DNA of 64,000 bases from Accumulibacter sp. (GTDB lineage: Bacteria > Pseudomonadota > Gammaproteobacteria > Burkholderiales > Rhodocyclaceae): contig NZ_JAPUVI010000029.1 of assembly GCF_029255285.1 (NCBI RefSeq), forward strand, positions 62,001 through 126,000, read 5' to 3'. Made by a program: the position numbers and the translations under genes. This document shows, piece by piece, positions 45,873-64,000 of this stretch. The first letter of the stretch is position 1. Each line of letters begins with the position of its first letter. Below the pieces are notes generated by a model. It was given only the letters and a program-made list of their open reading frames with translations, ran no database searches and was not told the origin of the DNA.

Positions 45873-45888
45873 TAAGTTCGATAGGCGG

Positions 45889-46320
45889 CTAACCCGCGTT
45901 GCCGCTGCCCAGTGCCTTGCTCAGGCTTCGCATCAGCAGGCCGATGCCAGGAAGCTTCGTGTACAGCTCTTCGGCGGTATCCCAGTAGTCGCGATGGTAG
46001 TTGACCTTGCCATCGGGGTCGAATTTCAGATGCGAGACGCCGCGTATAACCAGTGGCTCGCTGCACCACGGTCGGAGGCCGAAATGAAAGGTCCACACCA
46101 GCATCGCGCCGTGCTTGTCGACGATCCGCTCGCCTATGACGAAAAACGGGTTGCTGACCTGGCGGAACATGTGGCCGAAAATGCTCTGGATGGCATGCAC
46201 ACCGCTCACTTCGTTGAACGGATCCTTGAACCAGGCATTTTCGGCGTAGAACTCAGGAAAGCGAGCGACATCCGCCGGACTCAGGGTTTCGTAGAAACGG
46301 ACCAGAGCGTCGATGCTCAT
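45889..46320 (-). CDS. NTF2/SnoaL-like protein, last gene of the lipid operon
   Basis: 143-aa protein with an NTF2-like fold, recognised by [33 protein letters not shown] at the N-terminus and [13 protein letters not shown] near residue 110. Such folds are small enzymes or binding proteins. A homologue recurs in light- and sigma-factor-controlled cfa/DUF1365 operons. It starts 1 nt after the stop of the dehydrogenase gene. The intron relic begins about 15 nt beyond its end. Confidence 0.82.
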
Positions 46321-46321
46321 G

Positions 46322-47077
46322 TCAGCCTCCGGTCAAGCGGCGGATGAGTGGGAAATACCAGCCATAGGGTAGCCATGCCAACAGTTTCATCAGGCAGGTG
46401 AAGCGCTTCGGGAAATGGATTTCGAAGTTTGCCGATCTGAAGCCATCGACTATAGCCGTTGCCGCCTGTTCGGGCGTCAGCAGGCACGGCATGGCGAAAT
46501 CGTTTTGGGCGGTGAGCGGCGTGGCGACGAAGCCGGGGTTGATCACCCAGACGCCGATTCCCTTCGGTGCGAGATCGAGGTGCAGGACCTCGGCAAAGTG
46601 GATCAGTGCCGCCTTGCCTGGGCCGTAGCACAATGCCTTGGGCAGGCCGCGATAGCCGGCGACGCTGGCCACGAAAGCGATGCCGCCGCCCGGCTTCAGG
46701 TCGGGCAGGACGGCGGCGGCGACGCGCAGGGCTGCCGTGAAGTTTACCTTGATGACCCGCTCGGCGACGGCCAGATCGAAATTGGCGACGCGCATCGGAA
46801 CGTAGTCTCCGGCCAGGTAGACCACGAGGTCGATGCCGCCCCAGGTCGCCAGCACGGTCGCGTGGGCAGCGGCCAGGCTGTCCGTGTCGGTCACGTCGCA
46901 GCGCATCGGCAGGGCACCGGCGGGCGCCTGCTCCTGCAGCTTTGCCGCGTTGCGCGCCGAGAGCACCAGTCGTGCGCCACGTCTGGCCAGTTCGCTGGCC
47001 AGCGCTGCGCCTATGCCGCTCGAGGCGCCGATCAGCCAGACGCGCTTTCCCGTCCAGTCGGTGAAGGTCGGGTTCAT
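46322..47077 (-). CDS. short-chain dehydrogenase/reductase
   Basis: 251-aa SDR with the cofactor motif [21 protein letters not shown] (about residues 12-32), a VVYLAGDY segment in place of NNAG, and catalytic Ser and YGPGKAAL (Tyr-x3-Lys). The C-terminal region after [19 protein letters not shown] may touch the membrane. The start at 47077 overlaps the DUF3833 stop (ATGA). A redox role in lipid modification is inferred from the operon. Confidence 0.88.
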
Positions 47078-47595
47078 CGCTTGACGAAGGTCAGCGTGAC
47101 TTCGCCCAAATGAAAGCCCCATTTGGACATGGCGGATCGGTTCATCATCACCTTGTCGTCCATCAGGAACATCCAGTCGTCGAAATCGACGTGATAGACC
47201 TTGCCATTGACCGGCAAGGCGAGTACGTAGCGCCAACGCAAGGCGTTGCCCGAGACTTCGCCGACGGCCTCGCCGACCACATCGTCGGCCTTGCCGCGAA
47301 AGCTGCCGTCGGCCTGCCGGGTCAACGTCCATACCCGGCGCGACGTGCTGCCGTCAGACCATCGGAAATGCTCGTCGAGGGTGCCTGTGTCGCCTTCCCA
47401 GCGCGCATCGATGAGCACGTGGAAGCGCTTCGTCACTTCGCCCGAGCGACTCTGGAACATGCCCCAGGCGTCGAGCGTGCCGTTCATATACGCTTTCAGG
47501 TCGAGCGCCGGTTGTTCCGATCGGTATCGATCGACCTCGATGGCGGCACAACCAGCAATGCCCAGTGCGAAAGCGGCGGCGAACAAGAGTTTCAT
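47074..47595 (-). CDS. DUF3833 lipoprotein
   Basis: 173-aa protein with a lipoprotein signal peptide: MKLLFAAAFALGIAGC, lipobox AGC with the cysteine at residue 16. The DUF3833 domain fills the remainder (YMNGTLDAWGMFQSRSGEVT, then VYHVDFDDWMFLMDDKVMMN), which suggests a lipocalin-like beta fold in the periplasm. It overlaps its neighbours by ATGA on both sides. Found with cfa/SDR/DUF1365 genes in other bacteria; the function is unknown. Confidence 0.87.
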   Translation of the reverse strand: MKLLFAAAFALGIAGCAAIEVDRYRSEQPALDLKAYMNGTLDAWGMFQSRSGEVTKRFHVLIDARWEGDTGTLDEHFRWSDGSTSRRVWTLTRQADGSFRGKADDVVGEAVGEVSGNALRWRYVLALPVNGKVYHVDFDDWMFLMDDKVMMNRSAMSKWGFHLGEVTLTFVKR

Positions 47596-48818
47596 CGCAG
47601 GATCTCCAGGGAATGGCGCCAGCGCCAGAGCAACAGGCCGGCCAGCGACTTGAAAGCGAGCGGCAGAAGGGCATAAGCGACGGTCAGCGCCAGCAGCCCA
47701 TGGCCGCTGCCGGGGACGTAGCCGAGGCTGCCGAGCAAGGGCAGGGAAAGCCCTGCGGCCAGCGCCAGGTTGAGTTTGGCGACAAAGTTCCAAACGCCGA
47801 AGCAGGCGCCCGCCTGCCCCTGCCGCTCGCCGAGGTCAGCCGCGATGGCCGCCGGTAGCGCAAGATCGGCGCCGAGTGCAACACCGGAGGCGAGGCAGAT
47901 GGCCGCGAAGGGTCCGAGGTCGCCGGGGCCGAGCAGGCTGGCGCCGGCAAAGGCGACGATCGACAAGCCCATCGCCCCGAGCCAGGCGGCGACCCGGCCG
48001 TAGCGCGTCGCACAATGGACCCAGAGCGGCAACGAGGCGGCGCCGGCGACGAAATAGAGGGCCAGCAGGGCACCGCTTGCCTCGCTCAAGCGCAGCACAT
48101 CGGCCACGAAAAACAGGAACAGCGTGGCCGGCAGGGCAGCGGCAATGCCGTTTGCCACGAAGACCAGAAGGAGGCGGCGGAAGGCCGGGTCGGCGAAAAC
48201 GCGACGCAGGCTTGGCAGCAGCGGTTGGCTGACAGGTTGCGCGAGGGGAGTACCGGCGGCGACCCAGGAAAAGGTGGTCGCCGCGGAGATCAGCAGCAAG
48301 GGCGGCAGTACCCAGCTCAGGCGGGCGATGCCGTCGTCGAGGCGGCTGGCCAGCAAACCTGGCAGGGCGGCGGCAAGTACCACGCCGAGCAGGCCGAAGC
48401 CCTCGCGGGCGGCTGTCAACCGGGTGCGCTGACCGACGTCGCGTCCGATGTCGGCGCCCCACGCCTGATAGGCGACGGTGGCGGCGGAAAAGCCGAAGTA
48501 GGTCAAGGCCAGAGAGCCTAGCAGCCAGGGAGCCGGATAGTCGGCCGGCGGGTTGAGCAGAGCAATGAAGCCGATGCCAAACGGCAGCAGCGCGATCGCC
48601 ACCATGCGCGGCCGCGAGACGCGATCCGCCAGCCAGCCGAGCCAGGGGTCGATGCCGGCATCGAGCAGGCGGGCGGCGAGCAGGATGAAGCCGAGCAGTG
48701 CCAAAGGCAGGCCGGCGGTTTCGGCATAGAAGCGTGGCACATGGACGTACAGAGGTAGCGCGGCGAAGGCCAGCGGCAGGCCGAGCAGGCCGTAAGCGAG
48801 AACCTTGCCGGTGTGCAT
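47592..48818 (-). CDS. MFS transporter, GPH/MelB-like
   Basis: 408-aa transporter with about eleven or twelve helices. The loop DAGIDPWLGWLADRVSRPR (about residues 50-68) is the sugar/cation symporter (GPH) version of the MFS motif. It may move a lipid precursor or product, but the substrate is unknown. The start at 48818 (MHTGKVLAYGLLGLPLAFAA) lies 1 nt after the preceding stop and its stop overlaps the next gene by ATGA. Confidence 0.85.
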   Translation of the reverse strand: MHTGKVLAYGLLGLPLAFAALPLYVHVPRFYAETAGLPLALLGFILLAARLLDAGIDPWLGWLADRVSRPRMVAIALLPFGIGFIALLNPPADYPAPWLLGSLALTYFGFSAATVAYQAWGADIGRDVGQRTRLTAAREGFGLLGVVLAAALPGLLASRLDDGIARLSWVLPPLLLISAATTFSWVAAGTPLAQPVSQPLLPSLRRVFADPAFRRLLLVFVANGIAAALPATLFLFFVADVLRLSEASGALLALYFVAGAASLPLWVHCATRYGRVAAWLGAMGLSIVAFAGASLLGPGDLGPFAAICLASGVALGADLALPAAIAADLGERQGQAGACFGVWNFVAKLNLALAAGLSLPLLGSLGYVPGSGHGLLALTVAYALLPLAFKSLAGLLLWRWRHSLEILR

Positions 48819-48819
48819 G

Positions 48820-49431
48820 TCAGCCCGCCTGGCGCTTGAGCAGCGCGGCACGCAATTCGGGGGCGCTGGTCTTCGGGTCAAGCCAGATCGCGAAGAAAGC
48901 GCGGGCGAAAGCCGCGTCTTCGATGCTGCCGAGCCGCCGGTCGTTGAAATAGAAGACGGCCGCTTCGGGCGCGAAATAGCCGAGGATATGGTCGCCCGGC
49001 ATGACGTTGGGGAACAGGCGGGTCATCTGCTGTCCCCAGCGCTGCAGCGTGGTTTCGTCGCTGAAGCCCAGATGGCGCATCTCCTTGACGCTTGCATCGA
49101 CGATGGCCTGCGCGGCGATGCTGCGCCGGTAGGTAAGCTTCAGCGCCAATGGCGGGCGTTGCGGGTCGTCCGCAGCCCACAGGGTGGCCTCGTAGACGAG
49201 CAAGCCAAAGCGCCGGAACTCGCCGCTGCCCCAGCGCGAAAGACCGGCGGTCGGGTCGGTGCGCGCGAAGACGGCGAACGGCAACGCTGCCAGGGCAAGA
49301 AGTATCCGACGACGCGCGGCGCAAGCCGGCGGGTTTTTTCCGCCGATTTCCAGCGGCCGAGCGTAGCCTTCGTGCTCAGGCTGGCCTGGTGCCAGCCGCT
49401 CAACGATGAGCAAGTTCGAATTGGACGACAT
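48820..49431 (-). CDS. chalcone-isomerase-like exported protein
   Basis: Up to 203 aa. The chalcone isomerase-like domain covers about residues 60-200 (YEATLWAADD, TYRRSIAAQAIVDASVKEM, NVMPGDHILGYF, FARAFFAIWLDPKTS). A signal peptide-like RRILLALAALPFAVFA lies at residues 41-56, so the product is probably periplasmic. The start is uncertain: ATG at 49431 overlaps cfa by 32 nt, while a TTG at 49413 overlaps by 14 nt. Plant-type chalcone chemistry is unlikely; bacterial members of this fold bind fatty acids. Confidence 0.8.
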   Translation of the reverse strand: MSSNSNLLIVERLAPGQPEHEGYARPLEIGGKNPPACAARRRILLALAALPFAVFARTDPTAGLSRWGSGEFRRFGLLVYEATLWAADDPQRPPLALKLTYRRSIAAQAIVDASVKEMRHLGFSDETTLQRWGQQMTRLFPNVMPGDHILGYFAPEAAVFYFNDRRLGSIEDAAFARAFFAIWLDPKTSAPELRAALLKRQAG

Positions 49432-50590
49432 CGACGTTTCCGGCCCGAAAGCCGGCCTCACAATAGCAAAGGTACATCCGCCAGAGGCGGCGGAAGGTTT
49501 CGTCGAAGCCTTGGAGGGCAATGGCCGGCCAGTTCGCTTCGAAGGTGTGGCGCCATTCGGCCAAGGTGCGTGCGTAGTCGAGTCCGAAAGCGTATTCGTC
49601 GCGCACCGCCAGCCCCTGCCTGGCCGCGGCGGCACGGAAAGCGCTGCGCGAGGGCAGCATGCCGCCTGGGAAGATGTACTGCTGAATGAAGTCGGTGCCC
49701 TTGCGGTAGCTGGAAAACAGGTCGTCGCGGATGGTAATGCTCTGGATCACCGCCCGGCCACCCGGTTTCAGCGCGCTGGCCACGGCTTTGAAGTAGCCTG
49801 GCCAGAAGCGTTCGCCGACCGCTTCGAACATCTCGACGGAAACGACGTGGTCGAAACTTTCCATGATGTTGATGTCACGGTAGTCCTGCAGGCGCAGGTC
49901 CGCGTTCGGCACGTGTTTCTTCGCCCAGTCGAGCTGCGCCGGCGAAAGCGTCACACCGGTCACCGCGAGGCCCTGGGCGACGGCGAGTTCGGCAAAGCCG
50001 CCCCAGCCGCAGCCAATTTCGAGCACGCGCTCGCCCGGGCGGGCGGCCAGGCGCTGCAGGATGCGGTGATACTTGGCGCGCTGGGCCGCCGCCAGCGTAC
50101 CGTCATCGACCTCGCGATAGATGGCGGCGGAGTAGCTCATGCTCGGGTCGAGCCAGAGTCGGTAGAAGTCGTTGCCGAGATCGTAGTGAGCCATGATGTT
50201 ACGCCGGCTGCCGGCGCGACTGTTGCGGTTGAGGCGGTGCCGCAGGCGCGCCGCCAGCAGACGGGGCCAGGAACCATAGACCGCCCTGCCGATCGCCTCG
50301 CGGTTACGGGCCAACAAGGTCAGCAGGCCGGTGACGTCGTGGGAGTCCCAAAGGCCGTCGAGATAAGCTTCGGCCAGCCCGATGTCGCCGCGCGCCAGGA
50401 CCATGCCGAACAGGGATTCGTCGCGCACATGCAGCGTGACGCCGTGCTCACCGTCACCGAACAGGGCGCCAGAGCCGTCGGGGAGACGAATTTCGAGCAG
50501 GCCGCCGCGGAGTTTTTCCAGCAACTCGAAGGTCAGGCGGGTGTCGCGGGCCAGGCGTTCGCCGCCGCGAAGTATCATGGTGTCGTTCAT
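49400..50590 (-). CDS. cfa: cyclopropane-fatty-acyl-phospholipid synthase family methyltransferase
   Basis: 396-aa SAM-dependent methyltransferase acting on unsaturated phospholipid acyl chains. Key motifs are MAHYDLGNDFYRLWLDPSMS (about residues 135-155), VLEIGCGWGGFAELAV (SAM site), SVEMFEAVG, and FIQQYIFPGGMLPS. It could make cyclopropane rings or add a methyl branch; the family alone does not decide. The start overlaps the DUF1365 stop by ATGA. Confidence 0.9.
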   Translation of the reverse strand: MNDTMILRGGERLARDTRLTFELLEKLRGGLLEIRLPDGSGALFGDGEHGVTLHVRDESLFGMVLARGDIGLAEAYLDGLWDSHDVTGLLTLLARNREAIGRAVYGSWPRLLAARLRHRLNRNSRAGSRRNIMAHYDLGNDFYRLWLDPSMSYSAAIYREVDDGTLAAAQRAKYHRILQRLAARPGERVLEIGCGWGGFAELAVAQGLAVTGVTLSPAQLDWAKKHVPNADLRLQDYRDINIMESFDHVVSVEMFEAVGERFWPGYFKAVASALKPGGRAVIQSITIRDDLFSSYRKGTDFIQQYIFPGGMLPSRSAFRAAAARQGLAVRDEYAFGLDYARTLAEWRHTFEANWPAIALQGFDETFRRLWRMYLCYCEAGFRAGNVDVVQFELAHR

Positions 50591-51351
50591 TTGCTTGATT
50601 CCTGGAGAGCTTGGGGGGCACGGGCACCACGGAAAGGCACCCCTTTTAGCCAGAGTTTCAGGGCCTGCCAGTGGATGCGGACGATCACGCCGGCGGTCAG
50701 GAACGGCATGCGCAGGAAGGCGCCGAGCAGCGCCGCGGCACCCCAGGTCCGCGGCTTGCCGGAAATGGAAGTAAGCAGCAGTTCGCCCTCGGCGTCGTCG
50801 TAATCGATGCGGGCCAAGGGTACTGGCCGGTCGAGGTAAAAGCGGAAGCGGTAGCCACCGGTGATCTCGTTGAACGGCGAAACGTGAAATTCCTTGTCCG
50901 CCCACAGTTCCTGCCCATCACGCAGCGGGGTGCCGTCAGGCTCGTGCAGTAGGTAGGCATGTGTCGCGCCGAAGGTGTTATTGACCTCGGCGAGCACGGC
51001 GATCAGTGCGCCGGCGTGGTCATGGCAGAACCAGAAGCTGACCGGGTTGAAGACGTAGCCGAACAAGCGTGGAAAAGTCTGCAGGATGATCTCGCCATCG
51101 TCCGGCAGACCACGTGCGCGCAGTTGGGCGCTAATCCAGGGCAGCAGTGGGCTGCCGTCGCGCGGACCGTGGTCTTCTTGCCGGAAGCTGAGCAGACTGC
51201 TCCGGTCGACCCCGAAGAACAGGCAATTTCCGGCCGCCAGATCGCGCACCGGTAACTGGATGTAGAAGACGGGGTAGACGAAGGCATGGACCACCGGCCG
51301 CAGTCGGCGGTGCATCACATGACCGAGGAAGAGTCGCGGCGAGGGAGTCAT
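50587..51351 (-). CDS. DUF1365 protein
   Basis: 254-aa protein of the DUF1365 family, with FLGHVMHRRLRPVVHAFVYPVFY at the N-terminus and FGYVFNPVSFWFCHD around residue 103. It is nearly always beside cfa-type genes. As I recall, its Rhodobacter sphaeroides counterpart (UfaO) takes part in furan fatty acid formation, probably at the oxygen-insertion step. The ATG at 51351 comes 7 nt after the flavoprotein stop; an overlapping TTG at 51366 is possible. Confidence 0.88.
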   Translation of the reverse strand: MTPSPRLFLGHVMHRRLRPVVHAFVYPVFYIQLPVRDLAAGNCLFFGVDRSSLLSFRQEDHGPRDGSPLLPWISAQLRARGLPDDGEIILQTFPRLFGYVFNPVSFWFCHDHAGALIAVLAEVNNTFGATHAYLLHEPDGTPLRDGQELWADKEFHVSPFNEITGGYRFRFYLDRPVPLARIDYDDAEGELLLTSISGKPRTWGAAALLGAFLRMPFLTAGVIVRIHWQALKLWLKGVPFRGARAPQALQESSK

Positions 51352-51358
51352 GGCACGC

Positions 51359-52693
51359 TCAGGCAAAGGCGGCGGCGCGCCGCATCGGAGCGGGCAAGGG
51401 CTGCCACGGCGCGTTCAGCCCCATGCCGTTGGCGACGCGCAGGGCCGACTTCAGGCCGTCTTCGTGGAAACCGTAACGGCCCCAGGCACCGGCCAGCCAG
51501 ATGCCGCCATCGCCCTGGATAGCGCTGGCCGGATCGCGGAGCTTCTGTTGGGCGGCGATGGCCGGACTGTCGAAGATCGGGTGAGCGTAGTCGAATTCAG
51601 CCAGTATCTTGGCGGGATCAGGCTGGCGTGCCGGATTGAGGGTAACGACGACCGGCGCTTCGAAAGGCAGCGGCTGCAGCTTGTTGATCAGATAGGAAAC
51701 CCCGACCGGCTGTTCACCCGGCTGGCCCGCCGCGGCAAAGTAGTTCCAGGCCGACCACAACTTGCGGTTGCGCGGCAGCAGCTTCGGGTCGGTGTGCAAT
51801 ACGGCGCGGTTGGGCTGATAGCGGACGGCCGACAGCACCTGGCGCTGGGCATCGCTGGCCGTGCCACCGAGGATGGCCAGCGACTGGTCGCTGTGGCAGG
51901 CCATGACCACTTGGTCGAAATGCTCGCTGCCGAAGCGATGGGAGACGCGCAGGCGGCCGCCTTCGCGTGTCACGGCGCAGACTGCGCACGCCAGACGGCA
52001 TTGCGAACCGTTGTCCTTGATCCTGGCGGCCAGGCGGCGGACGTATTCGCGGCCACCGCCTTCGACGGTGCGCCACATGGGACGGTCGAAGACCTGCAGC
52101 AGGCCATGGTTTCGGCAAAATCGGATGAAGGTGGCGAGCGGCATATCGAGCATCTGGGCGGTCGGGCAGGACCAGATCGCGGCCGCCATCGGCAGCAGAT
52201 ACCAGTCGGCAAAGGCCGCCGAATAGCGTCTTTCCGTCAGGAAATCGCGCAGGCATTGCCGGTTGTCGGGGTAGGCGAGCAGCCAGTCGCCGGTTTCGCG
52301 GTTGAAACGCAGGATGTCGGCCAGCATGCCCCAGAATTCGCGGCGCACGAGATTGCGCTTCTGGCCGAACAGGGTCGCGAGGTCGCTGCCAGCCCATTCG
52401 AGCCGCGGGTTTTCCAGGCTGACGGCGAAAGACATTTGGCTCGTGACGCTGTCGACGCCGAGGTGTTCGAAGAGCGCGATCAGGTTGGGGTAGGTCCTCT
52501 CGTTGAAGACGAGGAAGCCGGTATCTACCGGGTGCGTCCGGCCTTCGAGCGTCACATCGATGGTATTGGTGTGGCCGCCGAGATAGGTGCCGGCCTCATA
52601 CAGGGTGACATCGTTTCGCTGGCTGAGCAGCCAGGCGCTGGCCAGCCCCGAAATGCCGGCGCCGACGACAGCGATGCGTTTTCTGGTAGGCAT
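51359..52693 (-). CDS. FAD-dependent amine-oxidase-like oxidoreductase
   Basis: 444-aa flavoprotein. The Rossmann FAD motif is IAVVGAGISGLASAWLL (residues 6-22) with YEAGTYLGGHTNT and PVDTGFLVFNERTYPNL, typical of the cfa-linked flavin oxidoreductases. The FAD-contact end GIWLAGAWGRYGFHEDGLKS is present. In R. sphaeroides a protein of this type (UfaD, as I recall) desaturates a methylated acyl chain. AAGGAGAA lies 6 nt upstream of the ATG at 52693, immediately after the small orf. Confidence 0.88.
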   Translation of the reverse strand: MPTRKRIAVVGAGISGLASAWLLSQRNDVTLYEAGTYLGGHTNTIDVTLEGRTHPVDTGFLVFNERTYPNLIALFEHLGVDSVTSQMSFAVSLENPRLEWAGSDLATLFGQKRNLVRREFWGMLADILRFNRETGDWLLAYPDNRQCLRDFLTERRYSAAFADWYLLPMAAAIWSCPTAQMLDMPLATFIRFCRNHGLLQVFDRPMWRTVEGGGREYVRRLAARIKDNGSQCRLACAVCAVTREGGRLRVSHRFGSEHFDQVVMACHSDQSLAILGGTASDAQRQVLSAVRYQPNRAVLHTDPKLLPRNRKLWSAWNYFAAAGQPGEQPVGVSYLINKLQPLPFEAPVVVTLNPARQPDPAKILAEFDYAHPIFDSPAIAAQQKLRDPASAIQGDGGIWLAGAWGRYGFHEDGLKSALRVANGMGLNAPWQPLPAPMRRAAAFA

Positions 52694-52703
52694 GCTTTTC
52701 TCC

Positions 52704-52940
52704 TTATTCGGCCAGGCAGCGGTCGACGGTCGCCAGTCGTTTGCCGTCGTCCAGCTTGGAGAGGCCGTTGCCGGCAACGATCTTGGTGGCGTACTGGCGA
52801 AACGGCATGGGCTTGGCCACCAATAGGCTGGCGAACTGACTTCCGAGCGCCGCCGGACAGGGTCCGGTACTAGCCAGCGTCACAAGGCGGGCGGGAATCA
52901 GGCTCGCCAGCCGGGGGATGGGGTTGACATTGATCATCAT
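52704..52940 (-). CDS. small protein of unknown function, first gene of the lipid operon
   Basis: 78-aa protein (or 77 from the second ATG) with no recognised domain. It has a proline-containing hydrophobic stretch and one CP pair, and ends RLATVDRCLAE. Third codon positions are strongly GC-rich, like its neighbours, and the frame fills exactly the space between the leader and the flavoprotein gene. The ribosome binding site is weak. It is more likely coding than not, but could be a leader peptide. Confidence 0.6.
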   Translation of the reverse strand: MMINVNPIPRLASLIPARLVTLASTGPCPAALGSQFASLLVAKPMPFRQYATKIVAGNGLSKLDDGKRLATVDRCLAE

Positions 52941-52962
52941 GTTTTTTACTTGCGCCCTTTTC

Positions 52963-52975
52963 TTGTCCTAGACAA
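52963..52975. promoter_or_regulatory. palindromic candidate operator TTGTC-CTA-GACAA
   Basis: Perfect 5-bp arms with a 3-bp spacer. It covers the -35 hexamer of the regulator promoter and lies in the leader of the divergent lipid operon. The half-site TTGTC is the same as in the 11-bp repeats at 53015-53047, which suggests one protein binds both. Confidence 0.6.
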
Positions 52976-52997
52976 AAATTGTTGTTGTTCGTAAGAT
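52969..52997 (+). promoter_or_regulatory. candidate promoter of the CarH/LitR-type regulator
   Basis: TAGACA (52969-52974), 17-bp spacer, TAAGAT (52992-52997). Its -10 overlaps the -10 of the divergent operon promoter, so polymerases would compete. Confidence 0.55.
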
Positions 52998-53021
52998 AAC
53001 GACCAGAAAGCCTCTTGTCAA
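52993..53021 (-). promoter_or_regulatory. sigma70-like promoter of the lipid-modification operon
   Basis: On the minus strand, TTGACA (53021 to 53016), a 17-bp spacer and TATCTT (52998 to 52993). The -35 coincides with the first TTGTC repeat of the operator, so bound regulator would block it. Confidence 0.7.
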
Positions 53022-53047
53022 CGGTTTGTCTAATAATTGTCCAGGAC
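53015..53047. promoter_or_regulatory. three 11-bp direct repeats, candidate CarH/LitR operator
   Basis: TTGTC begins at 53015, 53026 and 53037, exactly 11 bp apart. Oligomeric CarH photoreceptors bind direct repeats of this spacing. The first repeat covers the -35 of the operon and the third runs to the ribosome binding site of the regulator gene (AGGA, 53043-53046), so both directions would be repressed. Confidence 0.7.
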
Positions 53048-53051
53048 ATAT

Positions 53052-53957
53052 ATGGGTGCTATCCGTTTCAATATCGCGGCTGTCGAGCGCGACACCGGTT
53101 TGTCAAAGGACGTTCTGCGCATGTGGGAACGCCGCTACGGTTTTCCGGTACCGGATCGTGGCGCCAACGGCGAGCGCGGCTATCCACCCGATCAGGTTGA
53201 GCGGCTGCGCCTGATCAAGCGCCTGATGGACGCTGGGCATCGCCCTGGGAAGCTGATGGCGACCCCGCTGGCCGAGCTGGCGACGCTAGCTCCGCGCCGG
53301 AAGGGAATTCCTGAGCCTGCCGGTCGGCCTGCCGCCGGAGAGCTCGACGAGTTGTTGCGGCTGATCAAGCAGCACGATGTCGCCGGCTACCAGCAGGCCA
53401 TGCAGCAGCGTCTGGCACGTCAGGGATTGCAACGGTTTGTCCAGGACACTGTGGCGCCGCTGACGAGTCGGGTCGGTGAAGACTGGGAGCGGGGTGCTTT
53501 CGAGGTGTTCGAGGAACATCTCTTTACCGAGCTGACCAAACGCCTGCTCCGTCAAGCCGTCGCTGCGCTGCCCACGGGGCCGCGCGCGCCGCGCATCCTG
53601 CTGACCAGCGCGCCGGACGAGCCGCATGTGCTGGGTCTGTTGATGGCCGAGGCAATGTTTGCTCTGGAAGGAGCGGAGTGCATTCCACTGGGCACGCAGA
53701 TGCCGCTACGCGACATCAGCCGCGCTGCCTTGGCACATCGGGCTGACATCGTGGCGCTCTCGTTTTCGACGGCTTTTCCCCAGCGGCAGATTCCTGCGCT
53801 ACTGCGGCCACTGCGTGCCGCGCTGCCGGAGGAGGTGGCGCTCTGGGTCGGCGGCGGCGGCATCCGGTGGGTGGCGGACGTGCCCGGCGTCAAGCGGCTG
53901 CTCACCCTTGAAGAGGCGACATCGGCCTTGCTGGAATGGCAAGCCGTGTCGCGCTGA
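53052..53957 (+). CDS. MerR-family B12-dependent photoreceptor regulator (CarH/LitR type)
   Basis: 301-aa regulator. A MerR helix-turn-helix occupies about residues 5-72 (RFNIAAVERDTGLSKDVLRMW...RRYGFP). A four-helix cobalamin-binding cap domain has Trp145 followed by nine residues and Glu155-His156, the W-x9-EH signature of adenosylcobalamin photosensors. The Rossmann B12 domain has Glu190-x-His192-x2-Gly195 (lower axial ligand) and WVGGGGIRW near the C-terminus. The ATG at 53052 has AGGA 5 nt upstream. In the dark with B12 such proteins tetramerise and repress; light destroys the tetramer. It is divergent from the lipid operon. Confidence 0.9.
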   Translation: MGAIRFNIAAVERDTGLSKDVLRMWERRYGFPVPDRGANGERGYPPDQVERLRLIKRLMDAGHRPGKLMATPLAELATLAPRRKGIPEPAGRPAAGELDELLRLIKQHDVAGYQQAMQQRLARQGLQRFVQDTVAPLTSRVGEDWERGAFEVFEEHLFTELTKRLLRQAVAALPTGPRAPRILLTSAPDEPHVLGLLMAEAMFALEGAECIPLGTQMPLRDISRAALAHRADIVALSFSTAFPQRQIPALLRPLRAALPEEVALWVGGGGIRWVADVPGVKRLLTLEEATSALLEWQAVSR

Positions 53958-53961
53958 AGCG

Positions 53962-54000
53962 ATCCAGGGGCGACGTCAAATGCTGCCGTCGGCCCTGGAT
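53962..54000. terminator. candidate bidirectional terminator hairpin
   Basis: A stem of 14 bp with one mismatch (ATCCAGGGGCGACG / CGTCGGCCCTGGAT) lies directly after the regulator gene in the 134-bp gap between the convergent regulator and psiE genes. The T-tract is weak, so intrinsic termination is uncertain. Confidence 0.45.
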
Positions 54001-54091
54001 TTGAGGCCGAAGTCAGGTCAGCGTCGACAGCCTCGCGCCTCGCGACCGCGAGGCAGCTTCCCCGCTACAGCGCCCACTGTCAGCGCCGCGC

Positions 54092-54574
54092 TCAATGGTC
54101 ATGCGGCGTCAGTTGCGCACGCTGCAGCGACCGCGTTAACCAGTAGCCAATCGACAGTGCCAGAGCGAGTGCCGCCGTGGCATAGACGTAGTCCGGACTG
54201 ATTTCCTTGTAATCGAGGATGACGATCTTGCGGAGGACGGCCATGTAGGCGGTCGCCAGAACGATGTCGAGGTGCAATCCGTCTTCCTGCAGGTAGCTGA
54301 CAATGTTGACGAAGACTTCGATGGCGATCAGCACCGCCATGAAGGCGCCGAAAGTGGCGAGGATGTCGCTGATTTCGAGCAAGTAATAGGGGTGCACGCT
54401 GACCCGGCTGTAGAGCACGTAGACCACGTCGGCGACGCCCCACCAAATCACCAGGACCATGAGCACGGCCAGTACGCGCGCCGCATGGCGGATGCTGGCG
54501 CGCAGGTGGCCGATCAGCGGCTCGTCGGGATAGGGTTCCAGTGGCGGTTCAGTATCTGTTTCCTGGCCTTTCAT
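54092..54574 (-). CDS. psiE: phosphate-starvation-inducible PsiE family protein
   Basis: 160-aa inner-membrane protein with four helices (about residues 34-58, 66-88, 100-118, 130-148). The PsiE-family core IEVFVNIVSYLQEDGLHLDIVL and the YMAVLRKIVILDYKEISP loop are visible. The ATG at 54574 has GGGAGG 6 nt upstream. The function is unknown; E. coli PsiE is induced by phosphate starvation. It lies 98 nt beyond the P-type ATPase on the same strand. Confidence 0.87.
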   Translation of the reverse strand: MKGQETDTEPPLEPYPDEPLIGHLRASIRHAARVLAVLMVLVIWWGVADVVYVLYSRVSVHPYYLLEISDILATFGAFMAVLIAIEVFVNIVSYLQEDGLHLDIVLATAYMAVLRKIVILDYKEISPDYVYATAALALALSIGYWLTRSLQRAQLTPHDH

Positions 54575-54671
54575 TGCTGCCTCCCATGATTTGAGAAAAC
54601 GTCCGCGCCGGCGAGCGTCGGGGTGGCCGACCCGTTGTTCTTCGGCTCGCCGCGGGCATTCGTAGCTCCCA

Positions 54672-57347
54672 TTATCGTCCACTGTCGCGAGCGCGGAAGC
54701 GTTTTCCCAGGACCTTGCACGCTTCATCGAGCCACAGGACGGTCGCCGCCACCGCCACGGCCAGGCCCCAGTCGCGCAAGCTCAGATCGACGGTATCGAA
54801 GATCGCCTGCGCTGGCCCCCAATGCACCACCACCACCTGCAGCGCGAGCACGCCGGCGAGCGCCTGCCAGAGCTTGCCATTGGCAAAGAACGTGGCGTTG
54901 AAGGTGCTACCCTGCTCGGCACGGGCGTTGAAGACATTGAAGAACTGGAACAGCACAAAAGTGGTGAAGGCGAGCGTCATGGCGTACCGCGGCTGGTCGT
55001 GCGCGGCCAGCCCGTGGTGGAACATGAACAGGGTGCCGACCATCATCGTCAGTCCATAGAGCGCCAGGCGCAGCAGGCGGCGACCGTCGAGGATCTGCGC
55101 CGTTTGCGATCGTGGTGGGCTGCGCATCAGGCCGGGGCGCGCGGGTTCGACGCCCAAGGTCATGGCCGGCGGACCGTCCATGATGATGTTGATCCACAAC
55201 AGGTGGATGGCCGTGAAAGGCGTCGGCCAGCCGAGCAGCGTGGCGGTGAGCACGGTCAGGATGGCGCCGATGTTGGTCGATAGCTGGAAGCGTACGAACT
55301 TGACGATGTTGTCGTAGATCACGCGCCCTTCCTCGACTGCCCGCACGATCGTCGCGAAGTTGTCGTCGGTGAGGACGAGCGTCGCGGCCTCGCGGGTCAC
55401 CGCCGTACCGGTGATACCCATGGCCACGCCGATATCGGCTGCCTTGAGTGCCGGCGCATCATTCACGCCGTCGCCGGTCATCGCCACCACATGCCCGACG
55501 GCTTTCAGGGCACGCACGATGCGCACCTTGTGGGTCGGCGAGACGCGCGCGAAAACAGCGATGTCGTTGATGCGCGCGGCCAGTGCCACGTCGTCGAGCG
55601 CATCGAGTTCGGCGCCGCTGACCACATTGCCGGCCAGCCCCAGTTCGCGGGCGATCGCGGCGGCGGTCGCTTGATGGTCGCCGGTGATCATCCTGACCTG
55701 AACGCCGGCCTGGTGGCAGAGCGCGATCGCCGCCTTGGCCTCCGGCCGCGGTGGGTCCATCAGGCCGGCCAGGCCGAGGAAGGTCCACTCGCTGGCCCAG
55801 GCCATCGGGTCGCCTGTCGGGTCGAACTCGCGGGCCGGAATACGGCGCCGTGCTACCGCCAGAACGCGCAGCGCCTGGGCGGCCAGATCTTTGTTGCTGT
55901 TCTCGATCAGGCGACGGGAGGACGGATCGAGCGCCTGCTCGCCGTTCGCGCTCAGCCAGTGGGAGGCGCGCGCGAGCAGTACGTCCGGTGCGCCCTTGAC
56001 CAGCATCTCGACCATTTCCCCGGCGGCGTGAAAGGTGGCCATGAACTTGTGCGCCGAGTCGAACGGAATCTCCGCAAGGCGCGGCCGCTCCTGCTGTTCG
56101 GCCTCTGGCGAGAGACCGCCTTTCTGTGCGAGAACCCACAAGGCTCCTTCGGTCGGGTCGCCGATCAATTGGCCGTCACGGACGCGCGAGTCGGTGCACA
56201 AGGCCATGGGCAGCAGCAATGGGCGCAGATCGAGTCCGGAGGGTGCCTGCAGGCCGCCTTGCGCAAGATAAGCTTCGCCACTGGCCGAAAAAAAGTTCCC
56301 GGCGAACCAGCCGGCCCGCGCGGTCATCTGATTCAGCGTGAGGGTGCCGGTCTTGTCAGAACAGATCACCGTCGTCGAGCCCAGCGTTTCGACGGCGGAA
56401 AGCTTCTTGAGAATGGCTCGGTTGCGCGCCATGCGCCACATGCCGATGGCCAGCGTGACCGTCACCACGGCCGGCAGACCTTCGGGAATGGCGGCGACGG
56501 CCAGGGCGACGGCGGTCATCGCCGCCTCGGTCCACGGTTGGCCACGCAGGAAGTCGACGAGAAAGATGATCGTCACGACGCCGCCGGCGATGGCCGCCAG
56601 CTTCTTGCCCAGAGTGTCGAGCTGACGCTGCAGCGGCGTTTCGCCCTCGGGCGCGTCGGCGATCATGCTGGCCAGCTTGCCCATCTCGCTGCGCATGCCG
56701 GTCTCGGTGATCAAGAGCTCGGCGCGACCACGGGTGAGAACCGTATTCATGAAGAGCAGGTTCACACGGTCGCCCAGCGGCAGGTCTTCACTCGCCAGCG
56801 CGGCGACGTGCTTGCCGACGGCCTGCGACTCGCCGGTCAGCGCAGCTTCCTCCGCCTCCAGGTTGTGCGCCGCCAGCAGCCGGCCATCGGCCGGCACGCG
56901 GTCGCCCGCCTCGAGCAGGACGATGTCGCCGGGCACCAGTTGACTGGCATCGATGTCGGATACCCGCCCGTCGCGGCGTACCCGGGCGCGCGCCGCGAGC
57001 ATCTGCTTGAGGGCGGCCAGGGTGCGCTCGGCACGGTGCTCCTGCCAGAATCCCAAGCCGGCATTGAGCAGCACGACAATGAGGATCACCATCGCATCCT
57101 TGACGTCGCCGATCGCCCAGGCCAGCGCCGCCGCGAATACCAGGACGATGACCAGAAAGTTGCCGAACTGGCCGAGGAACTTCAGCCAGAGCGGGCGCGG
57201 GCGTGCCTCGCTGAGCCTGTTCTCGCCGTGCCGGGCGAGCCGCTCGGCGACATCGGTCCGGCTCAAGCCGGCGGCCGGATCGACAGCCAGCGCATTGGCG
57301 ACTTCTGATGCCGACAGGGTGTGCCAGGGGCGACTTCTCGAGTTCAT
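54672..57347 (-). CDS. P-type cation-transporting ATPase, type II, under a manganese riboswitch
   Basis: 891-aa pump. In order: an N-terminal cation-ATPase domain, the actuator loop with LTGES, helix M4 with PEGLPAVVTVTLAIGM, the phosphorylated Asp331 in CSDKTGTLT, the nucleotide-binding domain with KGAPD, the hinge TGDGVNDAPALK, then M5-M6 with LLWINIIMDGPPAM and four further helices. M4 is calcium-pump-like, while M6 has Asn and Asp ligands but Met where SERCA has Thr. The upstream yybP-ykoY riboswitch points to manganese export, with calcium as the alternative. Confidence 0.88.
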   Translation of the reverse strand: MNSRSRPWHTLSASEVANALAVDPAAGLSRTDVAERLARHGENRLSEARPRPLWLKFLGQFGNFLVIVLVFAAALAWAIGDVKDAMVILIVVLLNAGLGFWQEHRAERTLAALKQMLAARARVRRDGRVSDIDASQLVPGDIVLLEAGDRVPADGRLLAAHNLEAEEAALTGESQAVGKHVAALASEDLPLGDRVNLLFMNTVLTRGRAELLITETGMRSEMGKLASMIADAPEGETPLQRQLDTLGKKLAAIAGGVVTIIFLVDFLRGQPWTEAAMTAVALAVAAIPEGLPAVVTVTLAIGMWRMARNRAILKKLSAVETLGSTTVICSDKTGTLTLNQMTARAGWFAGNFFSASGEAYLAQGGLQAPSGLDLRPLLLPMALCTDSRVRDGQLIGDPTEGALWVLAQKGGLSPEAEQQERPRLAEIPFDSAHKFMATFHAAGEMVEMLVKGAPDVLLARASHWLSANGEQALDPSSRRLIENSNKDLAAQALRVLAVARRRIPAREFDPTGDPMAWASEWTFLGLAGLMDPPRPEAKAAIALCHQAGVQVRMITGDHQATAAAIARELGLAGNVVSGAELDALDDVALAARINDIAVFARVSPTHKVRIVRALKAVGHVVAMTGDGVNDAPALKAADIGVAMGITGTAVTREAATLVLTDDNFATIVRAVEEGRVIYDNIVKFVRFQLSTNIGAILTVLTATLLGWPTPFTAIHLLWINIIMDGPPAMTLGVEPARPGLMRSPPRSQTAQILDGRRLLRLALYGLTMMVGTLFMFHHGLAAHDQPRYAMTLAFTTFVLFQFFNVFNARAEQGSTFNATFFANGKLWQALAGVLALQVVVVHWGPAQAIFDTVDLSLRDWGLAVAVAATVLWLDEACKVLGKRFRARDSGR

Positions 57348-57540
57348 GATTGCCTCGCCAGGGGATTGGATTTCGGGTGGTGTCCGGTACTACGGATGGC
57401 GAGCGTCCGTCCGCTTACGCCGGCAGAGTTCCGGGCGGCCCGCATGCGCAAGAAAGCCGCTCCGATCCATGCGCTACCAATGCTTTGCATCAAGTGTTTC
57501 TCCCGTCAGAAGTTGTCTTCCGTTCTTCTGCCGCGCCTGC

Positions 57541-57582
57541 GCAAAACAGAACGGCCCTTGTCCAGCGAGGACGAAGGGCCGT
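57541..57582 (-). terminator. terminator in the leader of the P-type ATPase gene
   Basis: On the minus strand ACGGCCCTT and AAGGGCCGT form a perfect 9-bp stem, extended by GTCC/GGAC, followed by TCTGTTTT. It lies between the riboswitch aptamer and the gene, so it is the probable expression platform: termination without ligand, readthrough with manganese bound. The 193 nt from here to the start codon contain nothing else I recognise. Confidence 0.7.
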
Positions 57583-57602
57583 GATTCCGACAAGGGAGAC
57601 GA

Positions 57603-57731
57603 TTCGCCAGCGCGGCAAAGGTCTTGCTCGTGGTCACCTCGTGGTGGCCACCCGCGGCGCCGGGAGCCCTCGTACGGCAAGGCATTCCGTCCTGACGACG
57701 CCGCGGCGGAGAGCTACTCCCCCTTGGGACA
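57603..57731 (-). ncRNA. yybP-ykoY manganese riboswitch
   Basis: The minus-strand leader contains the two conserved blocks of this class: CAAGGGGGAGTAGC at the 5' side (about 57727-57713) and GCAAGACCTTTGCC at the 3' side (about 57628-57613), whose ends pair to close P1. Between them lie GTCGTCAGGAC and GGTGGCCACC helices typical of proteobacterial members. Transcription from the promoter just upstream would begin at about its first base. The class senses Mn2+ and commonly controls P-type ATPases, MntP and TerC-like proteins. Confidence 0.88.
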
Positions 57732-57736
57732 ACACG

Positions 57737-57765
57737 AATCTACTTAAGCTGGCAACCATAGTCAA
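57737..57765 (-). promoter_or_regulatory. promoter of the riboswitch-P-type ATPase unit
   Basis: On the minus strand TTGACT (57765 to 57760), a 17-bp spacer and TAGATT (57742 to 57737). Predicted start near 57730, the 5' end of the riboswitch. The remaining 225 bp up to the lysozyme gene show only a TATACT box at 57941 that might serve that gene. Confidence 0.65.
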
Positions 57766-57990
57766 GTATTCAAGCGTAGCGAGCGACCGGGAATCCTGCC
57801 GAAGGAAAACGGGCGCCTGCCGCAGTTGCTCTCGCGCGCAGCGGTCGCGCGCCTGATGGATCCGGCGAGAAAGGTAGCCCGCGTTCAGGTGCCGGAAGCG
57901 TTTGCCTTGGGATGGCCTACGCGGCGCATCGAGACGCCGTTATACTTGCGCCGATATGCGCCAACGCTAGGCGCCGAAAGGGGAAGAGGG

Positions 57991-59334
57991 ATGAGCAACA
58001 CCATCGGTCGCCGGTTGTCTGCCGGTAGCATCATCGCGTCGCTGGCGCTCGCGCTGGAAGCTGGCGCGGCGCCTGAGCTTCCGGCTGGGCCGGCGGCGGC
58101 GCCCGTTCCGGTGGCGACGTCCAGCAAGTCGTTCTGGCGTGCCACCGAAGAGGCGGCTACCTTGGCCGGAGGTTTGCCCGTGCGCCTGAACAGGACCTTG
58201 CTGCGCGACGGCGAGTTGCGCGTGGTGACGGTCGACGTGCCGCACGAGGGTTACCTGAACGTCGTCAGCGTCGGACCGGACGATGTGGCGACCGTCCTTT
58301 TCCCCAATCAGCAGCAGCCTGACAATCGCGTTCCGATGGGGAAGTTTACGATCCCCGGCGAGATGCCGAAGTTCGAACTGAAGGCGGCGCCGCCCTATGG
58401 CAGGACGCTGATTGCCGCTTTCCTGAGCAAGGACGAGCTCAATTTCTACAGCAGCGGGATCGGCGAACGAGACGAGCAGGGCGCCATGCGGCAGCCGTTT
58501 GCCAGGCTGTCTGGCGAGAGCCGCGTGCAGTTCGGGAAGCTGGCGGCCAAGAGCTTCGTCACGGCGGCGGCGGCGCCGCTGCTCGCCGGCCTGACCTATG
58601 GGCTGGTCTGCTCGCCGACCGGTCCCTGCGACTTGGCGAGCGCGGCGACGATGAGCGGCGTCGGCGCCGAGGAAAGTCTGGCTCCCGGCGTGCTGCTCGA
58701 ATCCGAGATCGAGTTGGCCTTGCCGAAAGGGGTGCGCTTACGCGCGCTGACCGACAAGGGTCTTCGCCTGGCCAAGCTCTCGGAGGGCTTCGTGCCGCGC
58801 CTGTACGACAATGCCGCGCGGCAGTGCAGCATCGCTTACGGTCACCTCGTCAAGAAGGCGCCCTGCGACGGTAGTGAACCGATTGTCTTTCGCCGCGGCG
58901 TCAGCGAGGTGCAGGGCGAAATGTTGCTCGTCGAAGACTTGCGGCGCGCTCAACGGGCTGTCATGGGCCTGGTCAAGACCGATCTCTCCGACCAGCAGTT
59001 CGCCGCGCTAGCTGATTTCACGTTCAACGTCGGGGCCGGCATGCTGCAGAAGTCGACCTTGCTCGAGGCAGTCAACGCTGGTCAGCACGAACGCGTGCCG
59101 GCCCAGTTGCGGCGCTGGACCCTGGTCGATGGCAAGGAATCGCGCCGCTTGAAAGTACGGCGCGAACGTGAGATTGCGTTGTATTTCGAGGGCGGGCGGA
59201 TACCGAAAGCGTCGCTCGACGGCGAGGATCTGGCGCCGATCGATATCCGCGTCGGCGAGCCACCCCGACCATTGGCGTCTCCGGCCGGCAAGCCCGGTGC
59301 GCCTGACGGACCGCCGTCGGTGTCGGCCGACTGA
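57991..59334 (+). CDS. exported DUF4384-lysozyme (GH24) fusion
   Basis: 447-aa protein with a signal peptide-like start (IIASLALALEAGAAP, about residues 14-28). The middle region (about 55-170: RVVTVDVPHEGYLNVVSVGP, ATVLFPNQQQPDN) matches DUF4384-type domains. The C-terminal part (about 260-410) is a T4-type lysozyme: LSEGFVPRLYDN supplies catalytic Glu and Asp, followed by SIAYGHLV and ALADFTFNVGAG. GGGAAGAGGG precedes the ATG. No holin, endopeptidase or phage gene is near, so it is a chromosomal wall-active enzyme of unknown target. Confidence 0.82.
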   Translation: MSNTIGRRLSAGSIIASLALALEAGAAPELPAGPAAAPVPVATSSKSFWRATEEAATLAGGLPVRLNRTLLRDGELRVVTVDVPHEGYLNVVSVGPDDVATVLFPNQQQPDNRVPMGKFTIPGEMPKFELKAAPPYGRTLIAAFLSKDELNFYSSGIGERDEQGAMRQPFARLSGESRVQFGKLAAKSFVTAAAAPLLAGLTYGLVCSPTGPCDLASAATMSGVGAEESLAPGVLLESEIELALPKGVRLRALTDKGLRLAKLSEGFVPRLYDNAARQCSIAYGHLVKKAPCDGSEPIVFRRGVSEVQGEMLLVEDLRRAQRAVMGLVKTDLSDQQFAALADFTFNVGAGMLQKSTLLEAVNAGQHERVPAQLRRWTLVDGKESRRLKVRREREIALYFEGGRIPKASLDGEDLAPIDIRVGEPPRPLASPAGKPGAPDGPPSVSAD

Positions 59335-59393
59335 AACTCCCGATGGCCGCCGTTTCTTGATCGGCCGCAAAGTCGTCGCCCCGCGTCGCTGGG

Positions 59394-59399
59394 TATAAT
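59394..59399 (+). promoter_or_regulatory. candidate -10 element of the menEFD operon
   Basis: A perfect TATAAT lies 35 bp before the menE start. No good -35 hexamer is seen at 16-18 bp, so an activator or extended contact may be needed. Confidence 0.45.
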
Positions 59400-59434
59400 C
59401 CGGGGACCATGTTCCCGCGCCCGCCTGAACGGCG

Positions 59435-60814
59435 GTGAGCCTTCTCGCCAACTGGCTGGACGAAGGCGCCTGCCACTTCCCTTCGACTACCGCCTTGCTG
59501 ACGCCGCGTGGCGAGTGGTCTTACGCGGATCTGGCCGCGTTGGCCGGACGCGGCGCCGGCGCGCTGCGCGCGCGCGGTGTGCAGGCTGGCGACATCGCCG
59601 TTTTTGCGGCGGGTGGCAGCGATTTGGCGTTGGCGGCGCTGGCCTGTTCGGCCGCCGGTGCGGTGCTCTGGCCGCTCGATCCGCAGTCCGTCGACCTGGC
59701 CTGGCCGAAGATGCAGGCGCTCGGCGATGGCCGCCTGAAACGGCTGGCCACGCTGCCGCCGCACTGGCCGGCCGGTGGAGTGGAGCGGACGGCAGCGCCC
59801 GACGACCTGGCGCTGGTCGTCGCGACGAGTGGCAGCTCGGGCGAGCCGAAAGCGGTGATGCTGAGTAACGCCAACCTCGATGCCGCGGCCAGGGCGGCGA
59901 ATCAGCGGCTGTCGCTGGCCGCCGGAGACCTGTGGCTAGGCTGTCTGCCGCTCCATCACATCGGCGGTCTTTCGCTACTGTACCGCTGTCTGCGTGCGGG
60001 AGCCTCGTTGCTTTTGCACGAGGGGTTTTCGGCCGCCGCCGTCTGGCGCGATCTGAACGCACGTCCGGTCAGCCACTTGTCGATGGTGCCGGCCATGTTG
60101 GCACGGCTGCTCGACGTTGCCGGCACGGCACCGGCACCGAGCAGCCTGCGGCATGTGCTGATCGGTGGCGCGGCCCTGTCGCAGTCACTGGGCGAGCGCG
60201 CGCTGGCCAGCGGCTGGCCGATCTGTCCGAGCTGGGGAATGAGCGAAACCGCGGCTCAGGCGGCGACGCTGCTCCGACCTGGCAAGGACTGGCGGGGCGG
60301 GCAGGTGGGTCCGCTGTTGTCGGGTTTGCAGGCCCGTGTCGGCGGCGATGGGCGCCTCCACTTGCGCGGCGCGCAGGTGATGGTCGGCTATCTGAATCCG
60401 GAGCGGTGCCCGGGCGTCGGACTTGACGACGGCTGGTTGGCGACGGCCGATCTTGGTCGGATCGACGCCGCCGGTTGGCTCACCGTCCTTGGCCGAGCCG
60501 ACGAGTTGCTGATCAGCGGCGGGGTGAAGGTTCACCCATCGGTAGTCGAGGCGTGTCTGGCTGCTTGCCCTGGCGTCAGCGATGTGGCGGTCACGGCGGT
60601 GCCGGACGCCGTGTGGGGCGATGCGCTCGTCGCGCTGGTCGTCGGCCAAACCGACAACGCCGCGCTCGACACCTGGATGCGCCAGCACCTGATCGGCGCC
60701 CATCGTCCACGGCGCGTCCTGCGGCTGGATCGCCTGCCTCGCAATGCGATGGGCAAACTGGAGAGGCAGCAGTTGCGGGCGCTCCTAGACTCGCCGCTCG
60801 CGACGTCGCGATGA
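59435..60814 (+). CDS. menE: o-succinylbenzoate-CoA ligase (MenE)
   Basis: 459-aa AMP-forming ligase of menaquinone synthesis that activates o-succinylbenzoate with CoA. Motifs: LVVATSGSSGEPKAVMLSNA (A3), LPLHHIGGLSLLYRC, CPSWGMSETAAQ (A5), DLGRIDAAGWLTVLGRADE (A7/A8) and the C-terminal lysine in LPRNAMGKLERQQ. The start is a GTG at 59435 without a good ribosome binding site; no ATG fits. Assignment as menE rather than another acyl ligase rests mainly on the coupled menF and menD. Confidence 0.88.
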   Translation: MSLLANWLDEGACHFPSTTALLTPRGEWSYADLAALAGRGAGALRARGVQAGDIAVFAAGGSDLALAALACSAAGAVLWPLDPQSVDLAWPKMQALGDGRLKRLATLPPHWPAGGVERTAAPDDLALVVATSGSSGEPKAVMLSNANLDAAARAANQRLSLAAGDLWLGCLPLHHIGGLSLLYRCLRAGASLLLHEGFSAAAVWRDLNARPVSHLSMVPAMLARLLDVAGTAPAPSSLRHVLIGGAALSQSLGERALASGWPICPSWGMSETAAQAATLLRPGKDWRGGQVGPLLSGLQARVGGDGRLHLRGAQVMVGYLNPERCPGVGLDDGWLATADLGRIDAAGWLTVLGRADELLISGGVKVHPSVVEACLAACPGVSDVAVTAVPDAVWGDALVALVVGQTDNAALDTWMRQHLIGAHRPRRVLRLDRLPRNAMGKLERQQLRALLDSPLATSR

Positions 60815-63974: not shown

Positions 63975-64000
63975 ACGGCTTGGGTATCACGGCGGATAAG

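Follow-up and report, generated by a model that had tools for sequence, protein, structure and literature searches.

The window analyzed here, a stretch of 64,000 nucleotides from Accumulibacter sp., contains a MerR-type regulator gene and, across a shared promoter region, a divergent operon of lipid-modifying and oxidoreductase genes named from their domains (Table 1).

Table 1. Genes, promoters and candidate operator elements at the regulator–operon locus (positions within the window)
Feature	Position	Strand	Remarks
Regulator gene, 301 aa	53052–53957	+	MerR HTH, four-helix B12-binding_2 and Rossmann B12-binding domains
Regulator promoter, TAGACA-17-TAAGAT	52969–52997	+	Sigma-70 scan
Operon promoter, TTGACA-17-TATCTT	52993–53021	−	Sigma-70 scan; overlaps the regulator promoter
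Operator O1 (predicted), palindrome TTGTCCTAGACAA (TTGTC-CTA-GACAA)	52963–52975		Over the regulator −35 box
Operator O2a (predicted), 11-bp direct repeats TGGACA/TAGACA/TTGACA (TnnACA)	53016–53043	−	Third repeat is the operon −35 box
Operator O2b (predicted), palindrome-like TTGTCCAGGACAT	53037–53049		Overlaps the first 11-bp repeat and the regulator ribosome-binding region
Operator O3 (proposed), intragenic TTTGTCCAGGACA	53436–53448	+	Codons 129–133 (F-V-Q-D-T) in the regulator reading frame
Glutathione peroxidase gene relic, 78 codons, internal deletion	52704–52940	−	3′-end DNA identity to L015–L017
FAD-dependent amine-oxidase-like oxidoreductase	51359–52693	−	Pfam Amino_oxidase, NAD_binding_8
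DUF1365 protein	50587–51351	−	Pfam
Cyclopropane-fatty-acid-synthase-like methyltransferase (CMAS; Cfa/UfaM-like)	49400–50590	−	Pfam CMAS, E 9.8e-79
Chalcone-isomerase-like, MFS_2 transporter, DUF3833, SDR and SnoaL-like proteins	45889–49431	−	Pfam

The order of the operon genes is kept in relatives wherever the genes are present. The best NCBIfam model for the CMAS protein is cyclopropane fatty acyl phospholipid synthase, with a score below the cut-off. In the seven relatives whose operon head was read, an intact glutathione peroxidase gene (185–206 aa) was present in six and folE2 in three, while folE2 is missing from the operon in the window. The peroxidase relic retains an N-terminal likeness by eye and returned no Pfam match; the corresponding gene of the relative L018 matched Pfam GSHPx. 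The operon seems to be decaying in some same-genus genomes, with the FAD oxidoreductase only partially matched in L151, not matched in L153, and several genes not found in L156, the regulator staying in place. Past the operon end, an ORF on the forward strand (45261–45713) resembles the C-terminal region of group II intron maturases.

The regulator starts at an ATG at 53052, in agreement with the residue numbering of a preliminary description of the locus, which had recognized a CarH/LitR-type B12 photoreceptor. Pfam identified MerR_1, B12-binding_2 and B12-binding domains, a PDB sequence search placed the protein nearest to Thermus CarH (E 2.5e-27), and a Foldseek comparison of its AlphaFold2 model (pLDDT 87.5, pTM 0.67) ranked the Thermus CarH structures 5c8f, 5c8d and 5c8e first (E 1.9e-19 to about 1e-18). 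These comparisons support the CarH/LitR-type assignment with both B12-binding domains. The RxWERRY recognition helix of the MerR head, a criterion for adenosylcobalamin (AdoCbl)-dependent LitR/CarH proteins (PMC9304148), is present as RMWERRY. The NCBIfam CarH equivalog NF052513 was the best-scoring model for the regulator, at 121.8 bits against a cut-off of 400. With Thermus thermophilus CarH (~35% identity), the regulator shares domain order, fold and the Wx9EH and ExHx2G motifs, and the loci share divergent genes and a triple of TnnACA repeats in 11-bp phase that includes a −35 box. The Thermus locus, however, comprises phytoene synthase and photolyase genes, whereas the present locus has a lipid/oxidoreductase operon and, in addition, palindromes of 15 bp and a copy within the regulator gene. 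We also considered CarA, the B12-independent paralogue of CarH marked by loss of the Wx9EH Trp (PMC9304148), and rejected it given that this Trp is retained in all 111 aligned homologues. A CobA/CobO/BtuR family adenosyltransferase is encoded in the same genome (4.19 Mb, 113 contigs).

The comparisons below draw on several samples. Aligned homologues were split by identity into 88 close sequences and a mixed set of 23 more distant ones, and the best 80 of 156 relatives from a search of genome contigs were kept as loci. As L095–L104 partly repeat the genomes of L015–L094, counts of distinct (61 promoters, 81 coding sequences) and clustered (40) sequences are also given. At E 1e-30, the regulator was found in 59 of 121 relative genomes in a wider search and in 14 of 369 genomes of a class-wide sample, the latter indicating that it is uncommon outside the order.

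The B12-contact residues of the regulator (W145, E155-H156 and E190-x-H192-x2-G195) read exactly as first described, and the equivalents of Thermus Trp131, Glu141, His142 and His177 show no variation in any of the 111 aligned sequences. The published CarH B12 motif rule, D/ExHx2G/P-x41-SxT/V-x22-27-GG (PMC9304148), was found at residues 190–268 (E190, H192, G195, S237 and G267-G268, with spacings of 41 and 27), the single deviation being Ser239 at the T/V place. The preliminary description presented these residues as those that bind and sense AdoCbl; the Trp, the Glu-His pair and the cobalt-binding His are indeed kept, but it omitted Thermus His132, which is replaced by Glu146, directly after Trp145. 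Glu occupies this position in 87 of the 88 close homologues (Val in the other), while the 23 more distant sequences have Met (16), Ala (3), Thr (2), Gly (1) or Val (1), and 20 wider homologues, Thermus included, have Ala (9), His (3), Glu (3), Arg (2), Leu (2) or Gln (1). His132 occurs in "many" CarH proteins and lies outside the published CarH criterion (PMC9304148).

In Thermus CarH, His132 becomes the upper cobalt ligand after illumination, and the light state is completed via O2-driven ligand changes (PMC10442372). The H132A variant binds AdoCbl and is still mostly tetrameric in light, although an earlier study had seen it disassemble, as related in the same source (PMC10442372). Glu at this position precludes a bis-His light state like that of Thermus CarH. 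Given the invariant B12 residues, the absence of His132 and the conflicting H132A reports, AdoCbl binding by the regulator is well supported by sequence, and its light-state behavior less so. The SignatureFinder cobalamin photoreceptors CtMerR, SasPcob and AbDPcob likewise lack His at 132 (Arg, Gln and Tyr, respectively; PMC11796333), but have other heads or output domains, and the residues given there do not include Glu. The Glu branch could serve as a natural test of whether His132 ligation is required for a B12 light switch; if its regulator responds to light, oligomer release has another route.

A sigma-70 scan of 52650–54200 returned two promoter-like sites and none further (shuffle mean 0.3), which are the two promoters named in the preliminary description. 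Their −10 boxes, reported there as overlapping, share 5 bp, and the −35 boxes lie outside, an arrangement in which the two polymerases would exclude one another. The regulator promoter has the same spacing in the consensus derived from 61 distinct sequences (given below). On the forward strand, TTGTC starts at 53015, 53026 and 53037, and direct reading thus confirmed the three repeats in 11-bp phase on the operon −35 box that had been described. Read on the operon strand, a TnnACA triple at exactly 11 bp was present in 66 of the 88 close homologues (window included) and absent from 22; no triple at any other period from 6 to 23 occurred in these 88 sequences, the mean over mononucleotide shuffles was 0.0, and none of the 23 more distant sequences carried the 11-bp triple. 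The published CarH operator consists of tandem 11-bp repeats (nnnnTnnACAn), of which Thermus has three, one on the −35 box (PMC9304148), and in the Thermus carH intergenic region we noted TGTACA, TTGACA and TATACA spaced 11 bp apart. The comparison speaks against a chance origin of the repeats in the window and supports their match to the CarH rule in spacing, core and −35 overlap.

The palindrome described on the regulator −35 box (O1) was found as reported. The statement that both operator and promoters were mapped covers O1, the triple and the promoters, but a second palindrome (O2b), half of which is the TTGTC at 53037, and an intragenic copy (O3) had been missed. A 15-bp palindrome with the consensus TTTGTYCNRGACAAA lies at the regulator −35 box and again over the regulator ribosome site. 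The 15-mers in the window carry one (O1), two (O2b) and two (O3) mismatches to this consensus, so the window is not its cleanest example. Across 61 distinct triple-bearing promoters, the consensus TTTGTCCTaGACAAA-N7-TTTGTTCGTAAgATAG..A.CAAA-N7-tTGTCAACggTTTGTCTAAc.TTTGTTCAGGACAAAtATG places two copies of the 15-bp palindrome on either side of the promoter pair. Among the best 80 of 156 relatives, the 13-mer was found at the −35 site in 76 loci and at the ribosome-site copy in 52, and the palindrome TTGTYCNRRACAA occurred at least once in 83 of the 88 close homologues and twice in 57. Within 900,332 bp around the 80 homologues (best 80 of 156), the 13-mer TTTGTYCNRGACA gave 220 strand-wise matches and the reversed pattern none: 152 at the regulator promoter, 66 at the intragenic place and two elsewhere, both of them from a single palindrome in L074 that matches on each strand. 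An 11-mer form of O1 stands at the matching place, corresponding to ~90 bp upstream of the start in close homologues, in 18 of 20 more distant stretches (L130–L149, all except L145 and L146). Given that none of the 23 more distant sequences has the triple, the O1 palindrome is the more widely kept element. Work in Cystobacter suggests that CarA and CarH recognize direct rather than inverted repeats (PMC9304148). Among the open PMC papers listed for the palindrome motif, none was relevant.

The exact 15-mer, counted with sites at the regulator's own promoter included, was present in 33 of 121 relative genomes, comprising 30 of the 59 with the regulator and 3 of the 62 without it (Fisher 6.3e-9); a control pattern gave five matches in four genomes. 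It was absent from 29 of the 59 regulator-bearing genomes, and the three with the 15-mer and no regulator at E 1e-30 were G071, G080 and G106. The neighbors of 22 palindrome sites in 20 stretches of relatives were inspected, with Pfam covering proteins of L207, L208, L209, L213, L216 and L217 and the remaining names given by likeness. A photolyase gene (L216), a glutathione peroxidase gene (L217) and a fasciclin gene (L209) each have a single site upstream, at 54, 80 and 54 bp, respectively; other sites precede SDR genes (L203, L205, L212 and L213), involve FAD oxidoreductases (L213 and L219), or belong to the home locus or its operon (L215 and L218). Sites with no sensible neighbor (e.g., L202, L204, L210, L211, L214, L220 and L221) may be due to chance. 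In two same-genus genomes, P-type cation ATPase genes are preceded by the palindrome at distances of 5 bp (L206) and 86 bp (L207); a P-type-ATPase-like ORF named by eye in the window, located past the regulator (54672–57347, reverse strand), has no site at ≤2 mismatches.

Within the Accumulibacter genome itself, TTGTYCNRRACAA at ≤1 mismatch gave 60 matches against 70 for the control, and so no regulon can be claimed from the palindrome; the one exact match is O1. A genome-wide search for 11-bp TTGTC repeats, proposed in the preliminary description, was informative in part: a mismatch-free TnnACA triple occurs solely at this promoter, with five further places at one mismatch (one control match), but the pair TTGTC-N6-TTGTC was rejected as a genome-wide marker, with nine matches against seven for its reversed control. 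The sole photolyase gene found in the genome (contig C24) has no site at ≤2 mismatches in the 14-kb stretch surrounding it, the best having three. With the peroxidase gene reduced, folE2 missing, the photolyase gene siteless and no other exact triple or palindrome in the genome, the local regulon probably comprises the regulator and this one operon, with a reservation for the five one-mismatch triple places. Proteins with Cupin_7, the ChrR-type domain, are present on contigs C22 and C67 of the genome, and a ChrR-like input may exist.

From the sequence comparisons, we consider it likely that the regulator is a CarH-like, AdoCbl-binding light repressor of its own gene and of the divergent photo-oxidative-stress and lipid-modification operon, in a betaproteobacterial branch of the family. 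In the dark, AdoCbl-loaded oligomers would occupy O1 at the regulator −35 box and O2, the repeats and palindrome at the operon −35 box and the regulator ribosome site, which would shut both overlapping promoters; O3 would add occupancy, either through looping of the DNA or by acting as a roadblock. Light would cleave the Co–C bond, the oligomer would loosen, and regulator and operon would be expressed, so that the regulator is probably the switch for a protective set of lipid-modifying genes. It is in this conditional form that we infer the complete light switch put forward in the preliminary description.

O3 lies ~400 bp from O2b in the window, and the intragenic 13-mer was found in 66 of the 80 loci (best 80 of 156) and in 65 of 81 distinct close-homologue coding sequences. 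Codons 128–132 form the five-codon stretch of strongest synonymous constraint in the gene (z 3.3 among close homologues), followed by codons 182–186 (z 2.9) and 161–165 (z 2.8). We think it unlikely that O3 is a by-product of protein and codon conservation with no regulatory role. Phe-Val-Gln-Asp is conserved in close homologues, with GTC, CAG and GAC being common codons there, the 13-mer is absent from this place in 16 of the 81 coding sequences, and the distance from O3 to the start shifts by 3-bp steps (372–393), leaving the helical phase not fixed, all of which would suit such an origin. Yet Phe129 is encoded by TTT in 79 of 81 sequences, compared to 207 of 629 other Phe codons (Fisher 5.7e-32, on non-independent sequences), and codon 128 ends in T in 58 of 81, across nine different residues, where T makes up 11.6% of third positions overall. 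The bias persists after clustering at 80% identity (TTT in 39 and the 13-mer in 29 of 40 sequences), and of 111 sequences, 64 of which were matched without type labels, the 17 with TTC at the Phe129 place all lack the 13-mer. Among the open PMC papers listed, none reported an intragenic operator copy in CarH control, and O3, whose conservation at synonymous sites extends to many relatives in the Rhodocyclales, would add a new element to such control.

The nature of the signal allows two further readings. One follows the class II LitR proteins of Pseudomonas, in which an operator-binding, B12-independent repressor is relieved by a partner, a short LOV protein. PplR of P. putida and PmlR2 of P. 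mendocina govern a similar, light-induced gene set (FAD oxidoreductase, SDR, UfaM, FolE and photolyase), and illuminated PmSB-LOV relieves PmlR2 (PMC9758184); the lack of His132 in the regulator would also fit B12 independence. We nevertheless find this reading quite improbable, given that class II proteins keep the four-helix B12 domain only (PMC9758184), whereas the regulator has both B12 domains and all four AdoCbl-contact residues are invariant. In addition, the Pseudomonas operator TGTACA-N12-TGTACA (PMC9758184) is absent from the intergenic sequence as read, and inspection by eye of the ORFs at 45000–64000 showed no LOV-like gene; a GRNCRF-type DNA pattern for LOV proteins gave two one-mismatch sites on other contigs of the genome and no control matches. 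Alternatively, the regulator may sense cobalamin supply or oxidants in place of light, with the Co–C bond or cobalt redox state reporting the B12 level or reactive oxygen. The peroxidase and oxidoreductase genes adjoining palindrome sites in relatives, the part played by O2 in the Thermus CarH light state (PMC10442372) and a reactive-oxygen response under blue light proposed for a Vibrio MerR-type regulator (PMC5241685) point this way, but the Trp and Glu-His with which Thermus CarH holds the adenosyl group are unchanged throughout the 111 sequences, and the photolyase gene in one relative and folE2 in three of seven operon heads suit light, leaving this reading decidedly unlikely too. The AdoCbl-dependent light repressor accordingly remains our preferred interpretation.

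The genes at the operon and at palindrome sites in relatives overlap with the Rhodobacter RpoE/ChrR regulon, which includes an SDR, a GPH-family symporter and two putative cyclopropane-synthesis proteins (RSP_1087–1091), as well as phrA, a fasciclin gene and folE2, and in R. capsulatus a glutathione peroxidase gene adjoins rpoE-chrR (PMC7074977). In Rhodobacter, a sigma/anti-sigma pair senses singlet oxygen, whereas a B12-type repressor stands at the operon here. The annotations suggest one photo-oxidative gene set under different sensors, such that similar sets in different lineages would answer to a sigma/anti-sigma pair, a LOV protein with LitR, or a B12 repressor. A broader proposal is possible, although we consider it less likely than not: B12 photoreceptors with Glu in place of the second His ligand may form a betaproteobacterial branch of their own that took over a singlet-oxygen-type defence set and represses it through a three-part operator, one part of it inside the repressor coding sequence, where it would let an oligomer close a ~400-bp repression loop.

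A second regulator, 54% identical to the first, is encoded elsewhere in the genome (L013:8591–9544, contig C73), after genes that by likeness encode a periplasmic nitrate reductase, and has no palindrome in the ~420 bp upstream. Regulators of this second type lie near their own divergent operon copy in most of the other same-genus genomes read; no second relative of the FAD oxidoreductase was found in the present genome at E 1e-20. The regulator in the window is 82–85% identical to those of three MAG loci (L015–L017, one named Azonexus) and 66–73% identical to same-genus close homologues, and the CMAS protein is 82–87% identical to its counterparts in L015–L017 compared to 72–76% within the genus. 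This pattern suggests lateral exchange of the regulator–operon cassette (45889–53957).
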